Shown: positions 4,672 through 28,171 of the stretch, in pieces | How the letters are laid out: each line of letters opens with the position of its first letter | How positions within the stretch are numbered: position 1 is the first letter of the stretch | Notes under the pieces: model-generated | What the model was told of the DNA's origin: nothing | Seen by the model: only the letters and a program-made list of their open reading frames with translations | Databases searched by the model: none | From: Candidatus Cloacimonadota bacterium | Lineage (GTDB): Bacteria; Cloacimonadota; Cloacimonadia; Cloacimonadales; GCA-2742885 | Direction of reading: 5' to 3' | DNA: 43,158 nt | NCBI GenBank assembly: GCA_002742885.1 | Contig: PDOO01000008.1 | Location: 1-43,158, forward strand | Made by a program: the position numbers and the translations under genes

Positions 4672-5847
4672 ATGAGTATTTTAATTCTTTCCGCTTTTCT
4701 TTTGATTATTTTCTGGATATTTGAATATTACAGGCATGTAAGGAATGTTAAATCCATTCCCGTCCGAATTCACGTAAACGGAACTCGCGGCAAATCAAGC
4801 GTAACCCGTTTAATAATTGCCGGACTGAGAGCCGGAGGGAAAAGAACCGTAGGAAAAACTACCGGAACAATGCCTCGCCTTATTCTTGAAGACGGAAGAG
4901 AAGCATCCATCGAAAGGCTTTTCGGCGCCAATATCATGGAACAAAAATATGTTTTTCGTCATGCCGCCGAGAGAAAACCCGAGATAATGGTCATCGAATG
5001 CATGGCAGTAAATCCCGTATTCCAATGGATAACGGAACGTAAATTCGTTCAATCCACCATTTCCGTGATCACAAATTCGCGCATGGATCATACCGATTTA
5101 ATGGGAAATACGATAGAAAGCATTACCCGATGTTTGTCAAACACCATTCCGGAAAACGGTTATTGCTGCACTTCCGAGAAAGAACAGTTCGGTATTTTTA
5201 AAGAAATTGCCGAAAAAAGGAATACCGAAATAGTTTGCGTTCCGTCTGATCACATTACGCCGGAAGACATGAAAGGATTCAATTATCTGGAACACGAAGA
5301 CAATGTCGCATTGGCTTTAAATGTTTGCGAGCGTTGCGGAGTAAAAAAAGAAGTCGCTTTAAAAGGAATGCATACAGCCGTCCCTGATCCCGGAGCATTG
5401 ACTATTTATCGCTCCGAACAAAACGGGAAATCCTTAAATTTTTATAACGTTTTTGCCGCCAACGACCCGGACTCGACAAAATTCATCTATCATAAAATAA
5501 CGGATAATCTGGAAAATGCGGATAAAATAATTATTTTGAACAGCAGAGCCGATCGCTATTTCAGAACAGTTCAATTGTTGGAGGTCTGTAAAAATCTGGA
5601 GTTTGATTACTTAATTCTGAGCGGAGAAAGAAACGAACAAGCTCTTGACTTCGCCCAAAAAACGGGAATAGACAAAAATAAAATTGAAGTTGTAAACGAA
5701 ATGGATCCGGAAAAATTATACGATAAGATTTGTAACATGACTCATAAAGAAAGTCATATTATCGGCATAGGAAACATTGCCGGTAAAATAAAGTACGGGG
5801 CGAGCATTGTTCGCTGTTTTATGAATAAGTCAAAAGGAGGAAAATAA
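4672..5847 (+). CDS. pgsB: Poly-gamma-glutamate synthase subunit PgsB/CapB
   Basis: A 391-residue ATP-dependent amide ligase of the Mur-ligase-like PgsB/CapB family. It joins glutamates through their gamma-carboxyl groups at the inner membrane. An N-terminal membrane anchor (about residues 3-20) precedes the family signature HVNGTRGKSSVTRLI (about 34-48), which is the ATP-binding loop. GKTTGTMPRLILEDG and TNSRMDHTDLMG are further family motifs. Length matches the family. GAGGATTTC precedes the ATG. It is the first gene of a three-gene operon; pgsC follows after one base. Confidence 0.96.
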   Translation: MSILILSAFLLIIFWIFEYYRHVRNVKSIPVRIHVNGTRGKSSVTRLIIAGLRAGGKRTVGKTTGTMPRLILEDGREASIERLFGANIMEQKYVFRHAAERKPEIMVIECMAVNPVFQWITERKFVQSTISVITNSRMDHTDLMGNTIESITRCLSNTIPENGYCCTSEKEQFGIFKEIAEKRNTEIVCVPSDHITPEDMKGFNYLEHEDNVALALNVCERCGVKKEVALKGMHTAVPDPGALTIYRSEQNGKSLNFYNVFAANDPDSTKFIYHKITDNLENADKIIILNSRADRYFRTVQLLEVCKNLEFDYLILSGERNEQALDFAQKTGIDKNKIEVVNEMDPEKLYDKICNMTHKESHIIGIGNIAGKIKYGASIVRCFMNKSKGGK

Positions 5848-5848
5848 C

Positions 5849-6304
5849 GTGATAGAAGCAGCTGTCGGGATAGGAGTAATTATAAGTCTTGTTTTTGCCG
5901 AAATTTTGGGAGCATCTGCCGGCGGAATAGTTGTCCCGGGCTATATTGCCTTATATTTGGACAGACCGTTGCAGGTTTTGGGAACGTTACTGGTCAGCTT
6001 CATAACCTTGTTAACAATAAAACTTGTTTCTAAGTTTACCTTGCTTTACGGAAAACGCCGCATGGTTCTCAGTATATTATTGGGATTTATTTTCGGTTGG
6101 CTTTCCAGAAATCTCAATTTCGGAGATATTACCGTATTTGATTTGGGAATTAACTCTATCGGTTACATCGTTCCGGGATTGATAGCCAACTGGATGGAAC
6201 GCCAAGGCGTAATAAAAACCTTATCCGTTATGATTCTTGCCGCTATCTTAGTGCGGTTATTATTAATTGTTATTTCGGGAGGGGAGGTATTAACCCATGT
6301 TTAG
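5849..6304 (+). CDS. pgsC: Poly-gamma-glutamate synthase membrane subunit PgsC/CapC
   Basis: A 151-residue integral membrane protein with about four to five hydrophobic helices and the family features GASAGGIVVPGYIALYLDRP near the N terminus and GYIVPGLIANWMERQG at about residues 106-121. PgsC forms the membrane part of the PGA synthase with PgsB. The start is GTG, one base after the pgsB stop, with AAGGAGG at 5834-5840. The 3' end overlaps pgsW by 8 bases, indicating translational coupling. Confidence 0.94.
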   Translation: MIEAAVGIGVIISLVFAEILGASAGGIVVPGYIALYLDRPLQVLGTLLVSFITLLTIKLVSKFTLLYGKRRMVLSILLGFIFGWLSRNLNFGDITVFDLGINSIGYIVPGLIANWMERQGVIKTLSVMILAAILVRLLLIVISGGEVLTHV

Positions 6305-7418
6305 ACCATCATTAAGAACCAATAAATCATTGGTTGCTCTTGCCTTATCAGCTTTTATTCTTTTTTATATTGCCGATCACAGTCGCAAGCAGGTTGAATC
6401 CCGTTGGTATGATTTAAAAATAGAAGCGGCAAAAGAAATGGCTTCCTGCATGAAAGTATTAAAAGAGGAAGCTGCAAAACGAGGTTACGAAATCGATAAA
6501 ATGAACGATCCGCACGGAACCGGCTTAATCGGAGTCGATGTCTCTACAATAACCACAAGCCGAGGTTCTCTCGATGACAGAATAAATTGTCTTAATCCCA
6601 ACTTAGCTGCCGGATTTGTAGATCAATTGAAATCAGCCGGTTTAAAACCCGGAAACTATGTCGCCGCCGGCATCACCGGAGCTAATCCCGGTTTAAATCT
6701 TGCCCTTTACGCTGCGATGAAAACATTGAAATTAAAACCTGTTATCATCACATCAATCGGTTCGGCAATGTACGGAGCAAACAGAGAAGACTTTACCTGG
6801 CTTGACATGGAAAAAGTATTATACGATAAAAAATTAATTCCTTTTATGTCGAGTTTTGCTTCTTACGGAGGCGGAAAAGATATAGGACGAGGTCTTTCCA
6901 AAGACGGACGCTCGGCAATGGACGCAGCCATAAAAAGAACCAATACCGTTTTAATAAACGTAAACGGCTTGGAAGAAAATATCAATGCTCGCCGAAAAGC
7001 TTATCAAAGCAGCCTTAAAGACGGAAAAAGCTTTAAACTTTTCATTAATTTGGGCGCCGGTTACGCAAACGTGGGAAGTTCTATAAATGCCAAACTTATG
7101 AAAACCGGAATTAACAAAAATCTGGCAGACAAAGATTTTCAGAATCCGGGAATTTTTTATACTTTCGCTCAAAAGAACATACCGGTTTTAAATCTTTATA
7201 AGACTGACGTATTTTTAAATAAATATTCTCTTCCGGAAGAATTTGAAAAAACACCTGAGCCGGGAGAAGGAAAAGTATTTGAAACAACTATTTATAATAT
7301 TACGATTGCTTGGATTTGCCTCATTGTTTTATTGGCGGAAATCGTCGCAGTTGTTTACTTTGATCGACAAGAAAGACATTTTACCGGAAATATCGTTGAT
7401 CCCGACAAACATATTTAA
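6297..7418 (+). CDS. pgsW: Poly-gamma-glutamate system protein (PgsW family)
   Basis: A 373-residue protein of the poly-gamma-glutamate system family that accompanies PgsB and PgsC in lineages lacking the Bacillus PgsA/CapA. It has an N-terminal membrane segment (about residues 11-27), a large extracytoplasmic part with GAYxNVGSS-like and GITGANPGLNLALYAAM stretches, and a C-terminal membrane helix (about 335-360) followed by a short charged tail. Its biochemical role is not established to my knowledge; export or anchoring of the polymer is inferred from the company it keeps. The ATG lies inside the end of pgsC. A strong terminator follows. Confidence 0.9.
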   Translation: MFRPSLRTNKSLVALALSAFILFYIADHSRKQVESRWYDLKIEAAKEMASCMKVLKEEAAKRGYEIDKMNDPHGTGLIGVDVSTITTSRGSLDDRINCLNPNLAAGFVDQLKSAGLKPGNYVAAGITGANPGLNLALYAAMKTLKLKPVIITSIGSAMYGANREDFTWLDMEKVLYDKKLIPFMSSFASYGGGKDIGRGLSKDGRSAMDAAIKRTNTVLINVNGLEENINARRKAYQSSLKDGKSFKLFINLGAGYANVGSSINAKLMKTGINKNLADKDFQNPGIFYTFAQKNIPVLNLYKTDVFLNKYSLPEEFEKTPEPGEGKVFETTIYNITIAWICLIVLLAEIVAVVYFDRQERHFTGNIVDPDKHI

Positions 7419-21071: not shown

Positions 21072-22640
21072 TTAATGAATCGACTTGGCAATTATACGGT
21101 AAAACAAGACATTAACTCGGCGGTCTGTTTTCCACGCAATATTGCTCAATTCATGCGAATACTCGGTTTCCTCAAGATCGTCGTTGAGCAGAGTCCATTC
21201 GTCTCCCCGGTCTAAACGGTAATAAATTTCATATTTGTCTGCTCCTTCAACGGCATGCCAAGAGACGTAAGAAACCTCATCCTCAATATTAAAAGTCAAA
21301 TTTCCGGGAGTTTGCAAGTTTATAAAAAAACTGAAAAAAGAATTTTCATTTTCCGGAAGCCTGCTTAAATTTCCGGCAATATCAGTCGCCGTAATATAAT
21401 AAGCGACGGAATCTCCGAAATTTATATTTGTAAAATTGTATTCATAACTTCCGTTATCGGCAGTCATAAAATCATCTTCGACAATATCTTCTCCGTTAAG
21501 AGAATAACTGAGTTTTACGGAAGCAACCTCCTGATTATCCGAAACTTCGGCAAACAATACGGGATTAACGCCGTCAACGCCGCCCTCGACGGCAGAATGC
21601 ATGATCATCGGCGGAACCGTGTCATCTTGCAAAACAAAAGTAATCTTTTTCATATCATTAAGCAAAGGCGCATTAAAAACAACCTCGATCCCGTCTGTAC
21701 CGTCAGCATTCTCAATTCCTGCAGTAACCGAATTGGGATTAAATAAATCCAGATACAAAAAATCAATTTGTCCTGACGGATGCAAAACAGCCTCAAAAGT
21801 TTCTGTATGCTCCGGCAAAAAAGAATAAGGATGCTTTACATGATCATACATGACAACCCAGACATTTTCTCCGCCGTAAACGGCAGATCCGGCATAAACT
21901 TCGCCCCAAGTTCCTCCCGTCGGTTTTAAGTCATCCCAAAAAGGAGCAATAAAATTATCAGGAGCGCCGAGATAAGGAATGCGTTGATTCATGTGAGTCG
22001 GAACATCAGTCGGAGAAAAAGAAAGCAAACCGTCCGCTCCGACATAAATTTCAGAATAATTTCCGCTGTAAAAGGGAAAGTCAAACGGTAATTCCAACGG
22101 CTCCGAAAATCCGCCGTCACTCAATGTCAAGGGTTCAGTATCAGAAATATCAATCCATTCTTCCGCCGTAAAATCTGAAATTTCGGCAATATAACCGAAA
22201 TCATCAGCTAAATCATTCTCGTCTCGATTATCGGCAACAAGTTCCAATAAAACGGATTCGATTTGATATATTTCATTTTCTTCTTCAATAATCGGAAAGA
22301 CATAGAGATATTTTTTCCCGTTTAAATATTCTGCGGTATAACTTCTATCCGGTAATTTTAAGCCCTGAGTTTCTGAAAGAATTATTTTTTTCTTTTTCAA
22401 GTCTTTTACCCTGATGTCCTCAATGCCGTTTTCCAATTCAATTTTGTAAAGCGGAATACCTTTGTACATTTCATCATCAACAATGTATCCGTCTTCTTTA
22501 AAAACGGTTTTGCCGTTTAAGGAAACAAAATTTAAGGTTTCCGTTTTCACAAGGATTCCGTTATCTTTTTCTGTTATTTTATTTTCAGCTTGCAACAACA
22601 TAATTAACACAAGAAAAGCTGCAATTAAAATTTTTTTCAT
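21072..22640 (-). CDS. Secreted multi-domain surface protein
   Basis: A 522-residue exported protein with a signal peptide at about residues 1-18 (MKKILIAAFLVLIMLLQAE). The N-terminal part to about 145 is unassigned. Residues about 150-330 form a sheet domain (FDFPFYSGNYSEIYVGADGL, then IAPFWDDLKPTGG) like the one placed after subtilase domains in other FCB surface proteins. Then come an Ig-like module (PVLFAEVSDNQEVASVKLSYSLNG) and a C-terminal fibronectin type III-like module (about 440-522, SYVSWHAVEGADKYEIYYRL). No catalytic triad and no T9SS tail are visible. Adhesion or a structural role is inference. The ATG follows GGAGGAAGT. The gene lies between two other envelope genes. Confidence 0.8.
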   Translation of the reverse strand: MKKILIAAFLVLIMLLQAENKITEKDNGILVKTETLNFVSLNGKTVFKEDGYIVDDEMYKGIPLYKIELENGIEDIRVKDLKKKKIILSETQGLKLPDRSYTAEYLNGKKYLYVFPIIEEENEIYQIESVLLELVADNRDENDLADDFGYIAEISDFTAEEWIDISDTEPLTLSDGGFSEPLELPFDFPFYSGNYSEIYVGADGLLSFSPTDVPTHMNQRIPYLGAPDNFIAPFWDDLKPTGGTWGEVYAGSAVYGGENVWVVMYDHVKHPYSFLPEHTETFEAVLHPSGQIDFLYLDLFNPNSVTAGIENADGTDGIEVVFNAPLLNDMKKITFVLQDDTVPPMIMHSAVEGGVDGVNPVLFAEVSDNQEVASVKLSYSLNGEDIVEDDFMTADNGSYEYNFTNINFGDSVAYYITATDIAGNLSRLPENENSFFSFFINLQTPGNLTFNIEDEVSYVSWHAVEGADKYEIYYRLDRGDEWTLLNDDLEETEYSHELSNIAWKTDRRVNVLFYRIIAKSIH

Positions 22641-22753: not shown

Positions 22754-23695
22754 TTAATCACGGGTAAAATTAATCTTCTTCTCAATAGAAACAATAGAAT
22801 CTTTATTTAATTTTCTGTTTTGATTTACAATCAATTCTCCGATTAATCCTATGGAAAAAAATTGAATGCCGGCAATAATCAGCAACATTGCCAAAAAAAG
22901 CAGAGGACGATTCGACAAAGGATAATGGAAGAAGTATTTTAAAACAGTAAGATAGAGACCTGCAAGAAACCCTGTTCCGCTGAATATTGCCCCTATCCCT
23001 CCGAAAAGATAAAGAGGACTCCTGATGTATTGCGTAACCAGCTTTACCGTCAATAAATCCAAGAATCCGCGCAAATAACGTTCAAAGCCGTATTTTGATT
23101 TACCGAAACTTCTTTCCCGATGCCTTACCGGAATTTCTGCGACTTTAAAACCTTTAGCATTGGCAAGAGCCGGAATATAACGATGCATTTCTCCGTAAAT
23201 GTCTATTTCTATAATAAGCTCTTTTCGATAAGCTTTGAATCCGCAATTGTAGTCATGAAGTTTCAGATTAAACATTTCGGATGTAACAGAATTGAATAAT
23301 TTTGAAGGTAAAGTTTTATTAAGAGGATCATTGCGTTTTTTCTTCCATCCCGTAACCAAATCGAAACCTTCGTTTATTTTATGCAAAAAAGAAGGAATTT
23401 CAGCCGGATTGTCCTGAAGGTCGGCATCCATGGTAAAAACAATGTCTCCGGAAGCATATTTAAAACCTGAATTAAGTCCTGCCGCTTTACCGAAATTTTT
23501 CCTGAATTTTATAATTTTAACATTCTTGTCTTTTCGGGAAATAGCTTCAATAACATCGTAACTTCTGTCTGTACTTCCGTCGTCTATAAATAAAATTTCG
23601 TATGAATTGCCGGATAAATTTTCCAGAATTTCGCGGTATAAAATATCTAAACTTTCTTCTTCGTTGAACACAGGTATAACAAAACTTAAAAGCAT
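22754..23695 (-). CDS. Polyprenyl-phosphate glycosyltransferase, GT2 (DPM1/GtrB-like)
   Basis: A 313-residue membrane-bound GT2 enzyme expected to move a sugar from a nucleotide sugar to a polyprenyl phosphate on the cytoplasmic face. The catalytic domain begins at residue 1 with SFVIPVFNEEESL; LFIDDGSTDRS (about 35-45) and the metal-binding DADLQD (about 90-95) follow. GWKKKRND and RHRERSFGKSKYG are typical of the DPM1/GtrB/ArnC group. Two C-terminal membrane helices lie at about 230-255 and 265-290. GAGGAG precedes the ATG. It starts 9 bases after the kinase-like gene and is the last gene of the isoprenoid operon. The sugar cannot be told. Confidence 0.9.
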   Translation of the reverse strand: MLLSFVIPVFNEEESLDILYREILENLSGNSYEILFIDDGSTDRSYDVIEAISRKDKNVKIIKFRKNFGKAAGLNSGFKYASGDIVFTMDADLQDNPAEIPSFLHKINEGFDLVTGWKKKRNDPLNKTLPSKLFNSVTSEMFNLKLHDYNCGFKAYRKELIIEIDIYGEMHRYIPALANAKGFKVAEIPVRHRERSFGKSKYGFERYLRGFLDLLTVKLVTQYIRSPLYLFGGIGAIFSGTGFLAGLYLTVLKYFFHYPLSNRPLLFLAMLLIIAGIQFFSIGLIGELIVNQNRKLNKDSIVSIEKKINFTRD

Positions 23696-23704
23696 GAAAA
23701 CTCC

Positions 23705-24343
23705 TCAGGTCAAAATCAAATAAGCTATTGTCATGACTATACCGGAAAAAACCGGAATCTTGAAATTATCGTCAATATTTATATCGGAAAACTCCGCAAC
23801 TGTAGCCGAAAAAGCTCCGACCAGAGAAATGACTAAAGCATCAAAACCGTACAAACAGACATTGCCCTGCGGCCAGGGAACATGGAAAAAAAACAGACTG
23901 AACACAAAAGTTGAAATAAAACAAGCCAACGTTCCTTCCAAACTTTTTTTTGTGCCGAATAATTTTCTCTTGCCGAAAGGGATCCCGATAAGAGCGGCAA
24001 AAGTGTCTCCCACAGATAAAAAAGATAATGCCGTAAAAGCAATGATGCCCGGGAAAAAAGAAATGCAAAGCACGGAAGAAGTCATAAGAAAAGTCGCTCC
24101 CGTCAAAAATTTATCCTCGTGTTTACGCAGCATGAAACCGAAAATACGATGAAATTTCTTTTTGAAAGTCTTGGATTCCAGTCTGGAGACATCAATAAAA
24201 AGAGCAATTAAAACTAACGGAATGAGAGCCGTAACGGCAATTTTTTTATTTCCGCCGGCAATAAAACGATAAGCAAAAGGTATTAATATTGAACTGACAT
24301 GAATAGATTTTCTGTAAAATTCCGTTTTCTGCTTTCGACTCAT
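23705..24343 (-). CDS. SEC59/DGK1-family polyprenol or lipid kinase
   Basis: A 212-residue membrane protein of the dolichol kinase/diacylglycerol kinase/phytol kinase family (related to CTP-using phosphatidate cytidylyltransferases). The conserved cytoplasmic loop is seen as SVGDTFAALIGIPFGKRKLFGTKKSLEGTLACF (about residues 116-148). RKSIHVSSILIP near the N terminus is also a family mark. About six hydrophobic helices are visible. It should phosphorylate an isoprenol or other lipid alcohol, probably with CTP. It starts 5 bases after the stop of the geranylgeranyl-reductase-like gene with a weak ribosome-binding site, so translational coupling is likely. With the reductase upstream and the glycosyltransferase downstream, a polyprenol substrate is the most economical reading. 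Confidence 0.87.
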   Translation of the reverse strand: MSRKQKTEFYRKSIHVSSILIPFAYRFIAGGNKKIAVTALIPLVLIALFIDVSRLESKTFKKKFHRIFGFMLRKHEDKFLTGATFLMTSSVLCISFFPGIIAFTALSFLSVGDTFAALIGIPFGKRKLFGTKKSLEGTLACFISTFVFSLFFFHVPWPQGNVCLYGFDALVISLVGAFSATVAEFSDINIDDNFKIPVFSGIVMTIAYLILT

Positions 24344-24348
24344 TTTGC

Positions 24349-25533
24349 TTATTTAAATCTGCTTATAACAAAAGATGTCGCCATTTGAGCCAACAACAGA
24401 GGATGACCTTTAACCGCTTGATAGAAAAGCTCTTTTATCGTCATTTTTTCTTTCGGTATTTTTTTGCAGGCGGCAATCAAATCATCAAATTTGTGTCCTT
24501 GCATAGCAAAGAAATCTTCTTTTATGTTATACATGAATTTTTGATTTTTACCGAGAATTTTAGCCCATTCTTTAGCATAGTTTTTCAACATGCCGGCAGA
24601 GAAATCATTCTTTTTAACCGCTTCCGCCGCCGTCTTTCCGGCAATAGCTCCGGCTATCATAACCTGCACTATTCCGCCCCCCGTAATCGGGTTCACCTGA
24701 CGAGCGGAATCTCCGACAATCATAATGTTGTCTGCATAAGGTTTTTTGAGCATGGTGGCTGTCGGAACGCCTCCGCAAACCGTGCAGGTAATCGCAGCAT
24801 CGGGAAACTTATCGGCAACAAATTCATCAAGATAAGCTTTGGCATTTTTTTCTCCGGAAAGATGCCCGGCTATTCCTATTCCGACGTTGGCGGTTGATTT
24901 TGATTTCGGGAAAATCCAGATATATCCTCCCGGAACATGAAAATAAAATTGTCCTCTGTCATCCGGCACGTCAATCCCGGACAACGTATATTGAACGCAG
25001 GTTTCCAAATCACGCATAGGAAGCAAAGTGTCTATTCCCGCCCATCTGCCGACTCGCGATTCAACTCCGTCAGCTCCGACAACAATATTGCAGCGGATAT
25101 TATATTCTTTGCCGTTCATAATAAATTTTACGCCGGAAATCTTTTTGCCTTCGAAAATTAAACCGACAGCATTGGCTTTAGTCAATATTTTAGCTCCGAA
25201 AGAACATGCTTTATCGACCAATGCATTGTCAAATATTCTTCTTTCCAAAATATAACCTTTAGGCATATTCTCGATATCAAGATATTCGCCCTTAGAATCA
25301 AAAAGACGAGCCGCCGTAATGGTTGAAGCTATAAATCGGTCTTCTATTTCTATAAACGGTTCTATGCCTGCATGCGAAACGCCTTCCCCGCATCTTACCG
25401 GAATTCCGACTTCTCTGTCTCTTTCAAGGATAAGAACCGATGCTCCGTTTTCTGCGGCATATCTTGCCGTTACCGATCCGGCAGGACCGCCTCCGATAAC
25501 GATTAAGTCGTAAAAATCATTTATATTAATCAT
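24349..25533 (-). CDS. Geranylgeranyl-reductase-family FAD oxidoreductase
   Basis: A 394-residue flavoprotein that saturates isoprenoid double bonds in characterised relatives (archaeal lipid GGR, plant/bacterial ChlP). The FAD Rossmann motif is IVIGGGPAGS (about 11-20). The family motif RCGEGVS (Cys48) sits near the flavin. GADGVESRVGRWAG and IVGDSARQVNPITGGG are the later FAD contacts. A longer frame to 25566 exists, but the ATG at 25533 is preferred: it overlaps the ferredoxin stop as ATGA, has AGAGGAC upstream, and the extra 11 residues lie inside the ferredoxin gene. The tightly coupled ferredoxin is a plausible electron donor, as for archaeal GGR. Related enzymes also act on quinones. 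Confidence 0.9.
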   Translation of the reverse strand: MININDFYDLIVIGGGPAGSVTARYAAENGASVLILERDREVGIPVRCGEGVSHAGIEPFIEIEDRFIASTITAARLFDSKGEYLDIENMPKGYILERRIFDNALVDKACSFGAKILTKANAVGLIFEGKKISGVKFIMNGKEYNIRCNIVVGADGVESRVGRWAGIDTLLPMRDLETCVQYTLSGIDVPDDRGQFYFHVPGGYIWIFPKSKSTANVGIGIAGHLSGEKNAKAYLDEFVADKFPDAAITCTVCGGVPTATMLKKPYADNIMIVGDSARQVNPITGGGIVQVMIAGAIAGKTAAEAVKKNDFSAGMLKNYAKEWAKILGKNQKFMYNIKEDFFAMQGHKFDDLIAACKKIPKEKMTIKELFYQAVKGHPLLLAQMATSFVISRFK

Positions 25534-25703
25534 AAAGCAATGTCCTCTAAAGCGCTCACCGGACATACCTTAACGCAGTTTCCGCAATGAACGCATTTTT
25601 CGTCGTCAATCTTTATTTCAAATTCAAAGACCTCAATAGCATCGGCGGGACATACGGATACACAGGTTCCGCAAATATCACATAAATTTTTATCTGTTTT
25701 CAT
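25530..25703 (-). CDS. 2[4Fe-4S] ferredoxin, 57 residues
   Basis: A very small bacterial-type ferredoxin. The first cluster set is CDICGTCVSVCP (Cys at about 8, 11, 14, 18). The second set is CVHCGNCVKVCP (Cys at about 37, 40, 43, 47). Both follow CxxCxxCxxxCP, so all eight ligands are present. The ATG is preceded by GGGAGG. The stop TGA overlaps the start of the reductase gene (ATGA), and the outer-membrane protein gene ends 15 bases upstream. It is most likely the dedicated electron carrier of the reductase. Confidence 0.95.
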   Translation of the reverse strand: MKTDKNLCDICGTCVSVCPADAIEVFEFEIKIDDEKCVHCGNCVKVCPVSALEDIAL

Positions 25704-25718
25704 GTTTCCTCCCGACTT

Positions 25719-26936
25719 TTACAGATCGGCTTTGGGAATATCTCTGTGTCCGGTTCTTTTCAAACGTTTTTTGAAGAAATCAAATCCGGTAACTCCCATT
25801 GTAAACAAAGTATCGGTATCTTTCGAGTCCGTGTCTCGACCATTGCGGACAGCGTATTTAAATCCTAAGTGTATTTGCTTGTCGGGCGTGGAAAGCGGTA
25901 TAGAAATACCGCAGGTAAAAGCTTTTTCAAATAACTTGTTGTTGTCAGTTTTAAAATAATTATTTTTGTAATAACCGCCTATTCTCAACGGAATCCTTTC
26001 GTACCATTTATATCCGTAACCCCATTTAGGATCGTAAGCCAGTCCGCCTCGCAAAGAATAAACATCTTCAAAATCTTGAGCAACATTTGAATCTTTCCAC
26101 ATTTCATAAGAAAAATCCGTATTTATTTTAAGTTGCGGAGTTATCTTATAAGTTGTTCCGAAAGTAAATCCGTGAGGCAATTCAAAATCATTGATTTTTT
26201 GAGTTGTTTGATGGGTTACGGTGATATGCTTTTGTTCGGCGGATAATTTTGCGTAAGAATCATAAACAAAGCCGAAAGCAATTTTTTCCCATTCTTTGGT
26301 AAGCCCTATCGTAAATCCGCCTCCGTGAAAATCGGTATCAAGTTCTTCCCTGTTGTCAACATAAGAAGCATCTTTAAAATCAAGACGATAAAACTGCATC
26401 CTGTTTCCGACGTAATAATCAGCTGCCAAGCCTATTTTAATCGAGTTAAAATCATAAGCGTAAAGAACAGATGCTTTATAAATATTTGCATGCAATTTAT
26501 TGATGACCGTCGCCTTCAAGACACCTTCCGGATTAGACTCATTAGGAAAATCAACAGATTTTCTAGAATCAAAATTCCCGGATAAATAAGGCGAAAAAGA
26601 AAACCCTATTTTGTGATTATTTAAAGGAACCCCGATTGAAAAATAGGGAGAATAAGAACCTTCTTCCGAGAAAGTTGAAATCCCGTCATCAAACCGGTAA
26701 TATCCGAATGTTAAAGAAGTAGAAAAAAGAACCCTGCCGATATTACCCAAAACAGCCGGATTTTCATAACCGGCATTTAAACGATAAACATCAGCAACTG
26801 AAGCATTTCCTGCTCCTCCGGAATAAGCGTCGACAGCATAATGTCTTTCGGGGAAACCGTCTAAAGAAAAGACGGAATCAGCCGTTAAACTTCCTGTCAG
26901 GGAAAAAATTATTAATATTAACGATAAAAAACGCAT
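25719..26936 (-). CDS. Outer-membrane beta-barrel protein (FadL/PorV-like)
   Basis: A 405-residue exported protein with a signal peptide (about residues 1-19). The N-terminal segment DAYSGGAGNASVADVYRLNAGYENPAVLG is the usual opening of FadL/PorV-type barrels (a Gly-rich start followed by NPA). The rest alternates aromatic and polar residues in about 12-14 amphipathic strands (for example FSTSLTFGYYRFD, IGFSFSPYLSG, IGLAADYYVG). It may pass hydrophobic compounds or serve as a T9SS shuttle-like component; neither is shown. It is the first gene of the ferredoxin-reductase-kinase-glycosyltransferase operon. GAGG precedes the ATG. Confidence 0.82.
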   Translation of the reverse strand: MRFLSLILIIFSLTGSLTADSVFSLDGFPERHYAVDAYSGGAGNASVADVYRLNAGYENPAVLGNIGRVLFSTSLTFGYYRFDDGISTFSEEGSYSPYFSIGVPLNNHKIGFSFSPYLSGNFDSRKSVDFPNESNPEGVLKATVINKLHANIYKASVLYAYDFNSIKIGLAADYYVGNRMQFYRLDFKDASYVDNREELDTDFHGGGFTIGLTKEWEKIAFGFVYDSYAKLSAEQKHITVTHQTTQKINDFELPHGFTFGTTYKITPQLKINTDFSYEMWKDSNVAQDFEDVYSLRGGLAYDPKWGYGYKWYERIPLRIGGYYKNNYFKTDNNKLFEKAFTCGISIPLSTPDKQIHLGFKYAVRNGRDTDSKDTDTLFTMGVTGFDFFKKRLKRTGHRDIPKADL

Positions 26937-27151: not shown

Positions 27152-28171
27152 TTAATCGGGATTATTCTTTACTCTTAATTTTACGCCTTCTCCGCAATTC
27201 CGACAAATTTCCAGAGATTTTCTGTTTTTGAGAATAATATTTCTTATTTTGTTAAATTTTTCGGATTTAAACAATTCCCCGACACTTTTTTCTTTTACGT
27301 TTCCGATTTTGAAGTCAACGTCTTTGTCAAAACAGCAAACGGACATTTCTCCGTCCCAATTTATCACTGCCGTAGTCCAAATTCTTCTGCATTTGTTTTG
27401 AATGCCGAATTTTAATTCAAAATTATTTCCGGTAATTTTATAACGCCTGTATTTAGGATTTTCCGGCAAATAATTAAAAACATCCTCTTTACTGTAAATT
27501 TGGGCGGTTTTCAATTCGAGTTTATCGACTCCGCTTTTTTTTGCCATGGCTTTTATTTCTTCTATTTCGTGTTCGTTATGTTTCATTACGATAAATTGCC
27601 AACGCAAATAAGGCGTAACCGAGTTAAGTTTCTTTTTGGCTGAAACCAAATTTTGCACATTTTCTTTTACCTTTTGCAAATTTCCGTTAATTCTGTATTT
27701 ATTGTAAGTCTCCTGTTCCGCTCCGTCCAAAGAGACAATCAACGAGTCCAAACCGGAACGCACCAATTTTTCGGGGTCGGGCATAACATTGACGTTAGTG
27801 GAAAGAAGAACAAACAAACCGGCATCGGAAGCGTATTTTATCATCTCCAAAATATCTTTATGCAAAAAAGGTTCTCCCTGATTCCAAAGCACTGCTTCCA
27901 CGGCATAATCCTTAACGTCATCAATAATTTTTTTGTAAAGATCAAGATCCATATATCCCTTGGCTCGTTTCAAAGTTCCGTTTCCCGAGGGACAGAGAGG
28001 ACACCGTAAATTACATATATTGGTCGGCTCAATCATTATAACCGGCGCATTACCCCAAACAACAGCTCGGTGAAAGACATTGCTTAAAAGCAACGACATT
28101 TGGTTTTTCGCCGCATTTACGATTCTCTTAAGATTCACTGATTTTTTTAAAAATAAATTTATTTGATTCAT
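27152..28171 (-). CDS. Radical SAM/SPASM domain protein
   Basis: A 339-residue radical SAM enzyme. The SAM-cluster motif CNLRCPLCPSG (CxxxCxxC, about residues 53-60) follows the beta strand IMIEPTN. A C-terminal SPASM-type region binds extra Fe-S clusters through Cys in NKCRRIW, SVCCFD and EICRNCGEG. SPASM proteins modify peptides, sugars or tRNA and include anaerobic sulfatase maturases. No precursor peptide was found beside it, so the substrate is open. The FGE-like lipoprotein at 31358 is several genes away and not clearly linked. GAGG precedes the ATG. Confidence 0.9.
   Translation of the reverse strand: MNQINLFLKKSVNLKRIVNAAKNQMSLLLSNVFHRAVVWGNAPVIMIEPTNICNLRCPLCPSGNGTLKRAKGYMDLDLYKKIIDDVKDYAVEAVLWNQGEPFLHKDILEMIKYASDAGLFVLLSTNVNVMPDPEKLVRSGLDSLIVSLDGAEQETYNKYRINGNLQKVKENVQNLVSAKKKLNSVTPYLRWQFIVMKHNEHEIEEIKAMAKKSGVDKLELKTAQIYSKEDVFNYLPENPKYRRYKITGNNFELKFGIQNKCRRIWTTAVINWDGEMSVCCFDKDVDFKIGNVKEKSVGELFKSEKFNKIRNIILKNRKSLEICRNCGEGVKLRVKNNPD

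Follow-up and report, generated by a model that had tools for sequence, protein, structure and literature searches.

The closest described counterpart of the system studied here is the archaeal-type ether-lipid pathway of bacteria of the Fibrobacteres-Chlorobi-Bacteroidetes (FCB) group (Villanueva et al., PMC7852524), reported from the same phylum, the Cloacimonadota, with co-localised geranylgeranylglyceryl phosphate (GGGP) and digeranylgeranylglyceryl phosphate (DGGGP) synthases (GGGPS and DGGGPS), prenyl synthases and an archaeal-type geranylgeranyl reductase (GGR). In that report, the GGGPS and DGGGPS of Cloacimonetes gave unsaturated archaeol in E. coli, and it is from such synthase activity that archaeal-type lipid synthesis in FCB bacteria has so far been proposed. 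Its main text makes no use of the words kinase, glycosyltransferase, operon or gene cluster, and ferredoxin appears once, in the reference list. Among the archaeal reductases themselves, the GGR of Methanosarcina acetivorans requires a ferredoxin encoded in its own locus for the reduction of DGGGP, and NADP is reported as the reducer for the enzyme of Thermoplasma acidophilum (PMC10821996). Here, we describe a bacterial locus in which such a reductase is found next to a ferredoxin, a putative lipid kinase and a glycosyltransferase. It occupies positions 22754-26936, minus strand, of a window of 43,158 nucleotides (the whole stretch analysed) from Candidatus Cloacimonadota bacterium, assembly GCA_002742885.1, contig PDOO01000008.1, and consists of the following five genes, abbreviated as shown:

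OMP, 25719-26936, minus strand: outer-membrane barrel, BamG/FadL-like, to which we assign no part in isoprenoid chemistry
FDX, 25530-25703, minus strand: 57-residue 2[4Fe-4S] ferredoxin, proposed electron donor of GGR
GGR, 24349-25533, minus strand: FAD-dependent geranylgeranyl reductase of the predicted archaeal-lipid type
KIN, 23705-24343, minus strand: SEC59/VTE5/DGK1-like putative membrane lipid kinase, with polyprenol or a related alcohol as proposed substrate
GT2, 22754-23695, minus strand: family 2 glycosyltransferase, probable ArnC/GtrB-like polyprenyl-phosphate sugar synthase

The five genes, their coordinates and their junctions, all given in an initial annotation of this DNA, were borne out by the open reading frame calls, the junctions from OMP to GT2 being 15, -4, 5 and 9 bases. 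The GGR frame is open as far as 25566, and its ATG at 25533 shares four bases with the ferredoxin stop (ATGA). We propose that the FDX-GGR pair probably saturates archaeal-type ether lipids, and that it does so from inside what may be a co-transcribed operon for polyprenyl-phosphate-sugar. In this scheme, the ferredoxin would hand electrons to the FAD of GGR, while a prenyl synthase, a DGGGPS-like UbiA protein and GGGPS, encoded elsewhere in the genome, would join isoprenoid chains to glycerol phosphate; GGR would then reduce the double bonds of those chains, yielding saturated archaeal-type ether lipids. KIN would phosphorylate a polyprenol or related lipid alcohol and GT2 would load it with sugar from a nucleotide sugar, the resulting polyprenyl-phosphate-sugar being destined for the envelope, and this KIN-GT2 module would not need saturation. 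The locus may thus provide for the saturation of the archaeal-type lipids of FCB bacteria, electron donor included.

The genome of the window (G000; 2.17 Mb, 93.6% complete) was compared with a set of 124 Cloacimonadota genomes. GGR matches at 1e-20 were found in 67 of the 124, four of which (G009, G047, G048 and G050) are divergent (30-37% identity) and were handled separately. When the regions around all 69 GGR matches outside the window's genome were examined, 65 loci were found to hold an orthologous GGR. A two-cluster ferredoxin is near or fused to GGR in 60 of these 65 loci (56 within 700 bases upstream, 4 fused), and downstream on the same strand lie KIN in 57 and GT2 in 55, KIN being within 200 bases in 45 of those 57. 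Several of the missing members coincide with contig ends, and many loci of family f13 have approximately 4 kb of other genes between GGR and KIN. The ferredoxin-GGR-kinase-GT2 order, the conservation of which had been set as a check on the initial annotation, is therefore phylum-wide and not confined to this DNA, and, since it recurs through the phylum, it is not due to chance. Among the matches listed, the best-matching named records for the window GGR (60-62%) belong to Candidatus Cloacimonadota and Candidatus Tenebribacter.

The ferredoxin contains two CxxCxxCxxxC motifs (Cys 8, 11, 14, 18, 37, 40, 43 and 47) and matches Pfam Fer4, and the GGR scores 208.9 bits with TIGR02032, over the curated cut-off of 158.8, and also matches the Pfam GGR_cat domain PF22578; these matches uphold the earlier naming of a tiny 2[4Fe-4S] ferredoxin and a GGR-family reductase. 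TIGR02032 was matched at E<=1e-10 by 17 of the 17 aligned GGR members. Since no equivalog cut-off was reached, neither that of the Thermoplasmatales digeranylgeranylglycerophospholipid (DGGGPL) reductase model (245.8 bits, cut-off 780) nor those of the other DGGGPL reductase models (159.2/580 and 93.7/700), membership of the protein is claimed at the superfamily level. Over the 17 members, the best E-value was obtained with the Thermoplasmatales DGGGPL model, ahead of MenJ, and the window GGR scored 104 bits with BchP/ChlP and 51.9 bits with MenJ (cut-off 700). The archaeal-lipid reductase models thus score far above MenJ, and the grouping with quinone clades that would have spoken against the initial annotation did not occur. 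The nearest solved structure is the DGGGPL reductase of T. acidophilum (3oz2; 2.8e-65, query residues 7-352). A PxxYxWxFP cavity motif and a FAD-proximal Cys (Cys47 of S. acidocaldarius) have been described for GGR (PMC10821996); the window protein carries them as PGGYIWIFP and RCGEG, the cavity motif is present in 65 of 66 GGR sequences, and the Cys, which aligns with that of solved archaeal GGRs, is found as RC.EG in 64 of 66.

In four of the 65 loci, the ferredoxin is fused N-terminally to GGR in one frame of 469-487 amino acids (L070 2678-4093, L074 4486-5895, L075 5680-7143 and L077 6038-7465; three genomes, namely G060, G061 twice, and G105), and because of these natural fusions the ferredoxin is likely to be the dedicated electron donor of GGR. 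The arrangement resembles that of M. acetivorans in its locus-encoded ferredoxin, but differs from it in being bacterial, in the small size (57 amino acids) and occasional fusion of the ferredoxin, and in the kinase and GT2 that adjoin it in this phylum. In the literature searched, bacterial ferredoxin-GGR pairs or fusions were not met in discussion, although they may still be in print. A GGR tree was built from 27 chosen Cloacimonadota loci, the window and 55 loci from other phyla, the archaeal enzymes being absent; the 55 loci form one side of a branch with a support of 99, and the long rows of G009, G050, G047 and G048 are placed unsurely. As the sequence scan for this tree (best 80 of 562 matches) gave bacterial records only, the probable archaeal affinity of GGR is read from the profile and PDB scores and from the published statement. 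The homologues of G047 (L097 6057-7277) and G048 (L099 716-1936) are very different, lie outside the locus and have a very long branch.

The window's genome holds one GGR, the only other match being of 41 residues (3e-5), and its contig C26 carries the clustered prenyl synthase, UbiA gene and GGGPS of the proposed pathway. The GGGPS (G000:C26:8635-9309) passes TIGR01769 with 209.1 bits against a cut-off of 161.55. For the adjoining UbiA gene the best model is PRK12882 (GGGP geranylgeranyltransferase), the score of 194.1 being below the cut-off of 296. A cis-prenyltransferase, UppS, lies side by side with CdsA (G000:C53:110496-111266), and such an enzyme was found in 115 of the 124 genomes. The own genome had been proposed as the place to look for GGGP and DGGGP synthases and a cis-prenyltransferase; the first and last were indeed found there, and the UbiA gene is a candidate DGGGP synthase by its position and nearest model, its score being below the cut-off. 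PF01040 at E<=0.001 matched only this DGGGPS-like UbiA gene in the 93.6% complete genome, and neither a second UbiA-family gene nor a MenA-type or chlorophyll-synthase-type enzyme was seen in that search.

GGGPS was sought across the phylum with PF01884, which matched in 67 of the 124 genomes, and in 60 of these 67 the start of a UbiA match lies no more than 1.5 kb from GGGPS. Orthologous GGR and GGGPS were both present in 61 genomes and both absent in 55, with GGR only in 2 and GGGPS only in 6; in the 70 genomes of at least 90% completeness and at most 5% contamination, the corresponding numbers were 36, 32, 1 and 1. This co-occurrence is mostly one deep split, that of family f2, in which orthologous GGR and GGGPS were each found in 0 of 49 genomes and KIN in 45 of 49. 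The joint absence of FDX-GGR and GGGPS in so large a family provides a natural comparison group. This absence, and the finding that GGR shares its locus with a ferredoxin that is probably dedicated to it and that four loci have in fused form, distinguish the present work from the published pathway (PMC7852524). On the GT2 tree, a single independent pair is available when only well-supported branches are taken, and four when all branches are admitted; of 200 random pairings, nearly all have GGR and GGGPS changing in the same direction in the well-supported pair. In other phyla, GGGPS was found in 48 of the 50 genomes with a GGR of the window type (50 of 55 searched). Among 199 Neomarinimicrobiota genomes, it was present in 86 of 100 with a strong GGR, 34 of 43 with a weak GGR and 10 of 56 without GGR, the strong/weak split being drawn by eye at approximately 1e-60 with fragments included. 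Fisher P values for the Cloacimonadota and Neomarinimicrobiota tables take no account of kinship and are given no weight here. GGR thus follows GGGPS in three sets, and the archaeal-type ether lipid, mentioned as an alternative in the initial annotation, fits better than the carrier route put forward there.

The locus is made of two separable modules, FDX-GGR and KIN-GT2, because KIN is kept without GGR and GGR is kept without a linked KIN. The KIN regions of 18 genomes without orthologous GGR were examined (15 in f2, of its 49, and one each in f3, f4 and f8), and no GGR or ferredoxin match was found in any of the 18; 17 of these genomes lack any GGR match, and G047 has its divergent GGR elsewhere. 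The order OMP-DHH-KIN-GT2, in which DHH is a DHH/DHHA1 (RecJ-like) gene, was seen in 17 of the 18 regions, OMP and DHH not being recognised in G059, and it holds for 15 of the 15 f2 loci examined, all without ferredoxin and GGR; the exception within f2 is G009, which keeps a divergent ferredoxin-GGR pair at the locus position. KIN occurs in 108 of the 124 genomes: GGR and KIN are both present in 59, GGR only in 4, KIN only in 49 and neither in 12 (phi coefficient 0.20). In 42 of 55 GGR loci sampled from Neomarinimicrobiota, Ignavibacteria, KSB1, Caldithrix and others (taken from the best 80 of 562 matches), the gene directly upstream encodes a ferredoxin, and KIN was near GGR in 0 of the 55 over a stretch of up to 6 kb on each side. 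KIN homologues exist in 48 of the 50 other-phyla GGR genomes, 46 of them strong, and 20 of 20 KIN regions examined in other phyla had no GGR, ferredoxin or GT2 match. These results do not favour a single route of reduction, phosphorylation and glycosylation as first envisaged for the locus, considering that the two modules occur without each other and that GGR follows GGGPS. Joint inheritance of reductase and kinase as parts of one route was not found either (49 of 124 genomes have KIN but no orthologous GGR), though outside f2 their phi is 0.60.

The neighbours of KIN in other phyla are recurrent but different (L294-L313), which suggests an old housekeeping role; in Ignavibacteria, KIN follows a gene that we take to be FtsH-like.

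A kinase function of KIN is indicated by its motifs, namely RKxxH, DTFAALIGIPFGKRKLFGTKKSLEG and E..DDN..P. The pattern D..A...G...G x8 K[ST]xEG is the CTP motif of the SEC59/VTE5/DGK1 kinases; it was detected in 76 of 76 KIN sequences with a spacer of 5-10, which is exactly 8 in 75, and E..DDN..P was likewise present in 76 of 76. R11, K12 and H15 of RKxxH are invariant in 18 of 18 aligned KIN. The protein thus shares three motifs with the CTP-dependent SEC59/VTE5/DGK1 kinases, but is only approximately 200 amino acids long, and the window KIN has no Pfam match even at E<=10 and no relevant NCBIfam model; PF01148 was reached at E<=1 by 11 of the 18 alignment members (best 1.3e-6), not by the window protein. 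The initial designation as a SEC59/DGK1-family kinase hence stands on the three motifs, and not on any curated family model. The only solved relatives of the KIN profile under E 0.01 are CdsA, the nearest at 5.9e-4 over 54 positions. The C-terminal signature of CdsA is S-x-x-K-R...K-D...HGG-x-D-R, and it was found in 0 of 76 KIN. A CdsA role was rejected on the absence of this signature and the presence of a separate CdsA in the genome, even though the solved relatives are CdsA. By the signature, the outcome considered damaging in the initial annotation, a grouping of the kinase with CDP-diacylglycerol synthases, did not occur.

GT2 passes PF00535, and its nearest solved relatives are ArnC (9bhc, 1.1e-50), followed by GtrB sll0501 (4e-30) and then DPMS (1.7e-23). 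It resembles the ArnC/GtrB synthases in its GT2 domain, in a match to ArnC that spans residues 3-289, and in two C-terminal transmembrane-like stretches that start at 234 and 259 by hydropathy; with the ArnC equivalog model it scores 191 bits against a cut-off of 529. Because ArnC and GtrB score above DPMS, ArnC/GtrB-like fits this protein better than DPM1-like as a predicted class. In many f10 loci, a UDPGP-family uridylyltransferase directly follows GT2 (e.g., L060 8734-10086), a neighbour that suggests UDP-glucose as a possible sugar donor. In the window, the gene after GT2 (21072-22640) has no UDPGP-family match, the rest of the genome not having been searched for it.

Several observations weigh against saturation of ether lipids as the function of FDX-GGR. 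The pair adjoins carrier genes in most of the phylum's families, and two separable functions do not account for this. Outside f2 (75 genomes), GGR-GGGPS (both, GGR only, GGGPS only, neither: 61/2/6/6) has a phi of 0.56 vs 0.60 for GGR-KIN (59/4/4/8), and in the 39 better genomes outside f2 the values are 0.47 and 0.69, respectively, the GGR-KIN correlation partly reflecting the contig that both genes share. The events are few, the GT2 tree (74 rows) needing 4 GGR and 5 GGGPS changes, and PF01884 by itself also matches in B. subtilis, a control. There are genomes that break the association: G085 (96% complete) has GGR without GGGPS, G064 (98%) has GGGPS without a GGR match, and no GGGPS match was found in 14 of the 100 Neomarinimicrobiota genomes with a strong GGR. 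Further, G050 (99%) and G009 (74%) keep, at this locus, a ferredoxin plus a divergent GGR whose catalytic motifs are intact (L095 5884-7252 and L094 1721-3088, respectively; long branches in the GGR tree), and neither has a GGGPS or UbiA match. Within the proposed pathway, the model that the prenyl synthase of the cluster passes is one for farnesyl diphosphate synthase (292.7, cut-off 275), and not a geranylgeranyl one; with CrtE, a geranylgeranyl diphosphate (GGPP) synthase, it reaches 248.2/460. No specific glycerol-1-phosphate (G1P) dehydrogenase was identified in the genome; PF13685 gave two partial matches of approximately 41 bits (cut-off 28), but this model also finds matches in 13 of 14 controls, E. 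coli among them. This is a point of likeness to the published pathway, where egsA and araM (G1P dehydrogenase) are reported missing in the metagenome-assembled genomes (PMC7852524).

Room is left for a second use of GGR on the carrier because of the persistent neighbourhood, the equal KIN correlation outside f2 and the divergent GGRs without GGGPS. A single GGR could thus saturate ether lipids as well as a polyprenyl carrier, with its operon position functional for both: one GGR was detected, tied to GGGPS by co-occurrence and to KIN-GT2 by position, and GGRs are said to act on various polyprenyl substrates (PMC6309074). However, linkage by itself is not function, and KIN-GT2 without GGR in f2, as well as GGR without nearby KIN-GT2 elsewhere, argue otherwise. 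Since outside f2 GGR goes with KIN as well as with GGGPS, we regard the saturation of ether lipids as probable but well short of firm, and such shared use as unlikely. If it were true, these bacteria would combine an archaeal membrane-lipid trait with a dolichol-like carrier, and in G009 and G050 the reductase would have been retained for the carrier alone. Somewhat less likely again is a dolichol-type route, in which GGR would mainly reduce polyprenol or polyprenyl phosphate for phosphorylation by KIN and glycosylation by GT2. The close coupling of FDX-GGR to KIN-GT2 throughout the phylum, the GGR-KIN correlation outside f2, the cis-prenyltransferase, the uridylyltransferase next in many f10 relatives, and the FDX-GGR pairs that G050 and G009 keep beside GT2 (in G009 also KIN) without GGGPS would all suit it, and there is precedent in the mycobacterial HepR, which reduces heptaprenyl diphosphate (PMC10821996), and in archaeal GGRs that reduce units of dolichol phosphate or its precursors (PMC5088576). 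Nonetheless, this reading is weakened by the 49 genomes in which KIN occurs without orthologous GGR, by the intact KIN-GT2 without FDX-GGR in the f2 loci examined, by the absence of KIN near GGR in the 55 other-phyla loci, by the tracking of GGGPS by GGR in three sets, and by a GT2 closer to ArnC than to DPMS. The locus permits a clear test of whether or not these bacteria have a saturated, dolichol-like sugar carrier.

Two further explanations draw on other branches of isoprenoid metabolism. In a prenol salvage, KIN would phosphorylate geranylgeraniol or phytol in the manner of VTE5, and GGR would make phytyl diphosphate from GGPP for another product. The invariant RKxxH of KIN is indeed like the Arg-Lys-x-x-His modelled as a putative CTP clamp in the Plasmodium prenol kinase (PMC10849223), but the genome gave only one UbiA-family match, the neighbouring GT2 is of the polyprenyl-phosphate sugar synthase type, and KIN is kept without GGR, which makes the salvage very unlikely. 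The least probable of all is the reduction of a quinone tail as by MenJ, corresponding to the modified quinone that had been entertained as another alternative: membership in the GGR superfamily speaks for it, against which stand the low MenJ score, the fact that the DGGGPL models come first by best E-value across the 17 members, and the DGGGPS-like nature of the sole UbiA-family match, no MenA-type gene being seen. A quinone role of GGR was rejected for two reasons, its low score with MenJ and the absence of any further UbiA-family match.

Six of the 14 strong-GGR Neomarinimicrobiota genomes without GGGPS (G189, G194, G206, G225, G229 and G242) have a similar, lower GGR score of 1e-114 to 1e-120, and are perhaps a subgroup with another substrate. 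G050 has no KIN match, and its GT2 falls among the f10 rows with weak support, whereas G009 keeps KIN and GT2.

As for the remaining genes, OMP resembles BamG (NF053685, 107.5 bits against a cut-off of 250) and has a weak Toluene_X match (0.0037), in agreement with its original description as an outer-membrane barrel, and its position upstream of the locus recurs in relatives. The DHH/DHHA1 gene recurs between OMP and the ferredoxin in many relatives (loci L032-L100 and L175-L193), and is missing there in the window. Further upstream in the window (27152-28171) is a radical SAM/SPASM protein, for which the best model is TIGR04317 (tungsten cofactor oxidoreductase maturase; 123 bits, cut-off 380). 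Lastly, three genes at 4672-7418 resemble what we take to be a poly-gamma-glutamate synthase set (CapB/CapC-like), and a 2026 paper (PMC13082233) reportedly ties Cloacimonadota to poly-gamma-glutamate.

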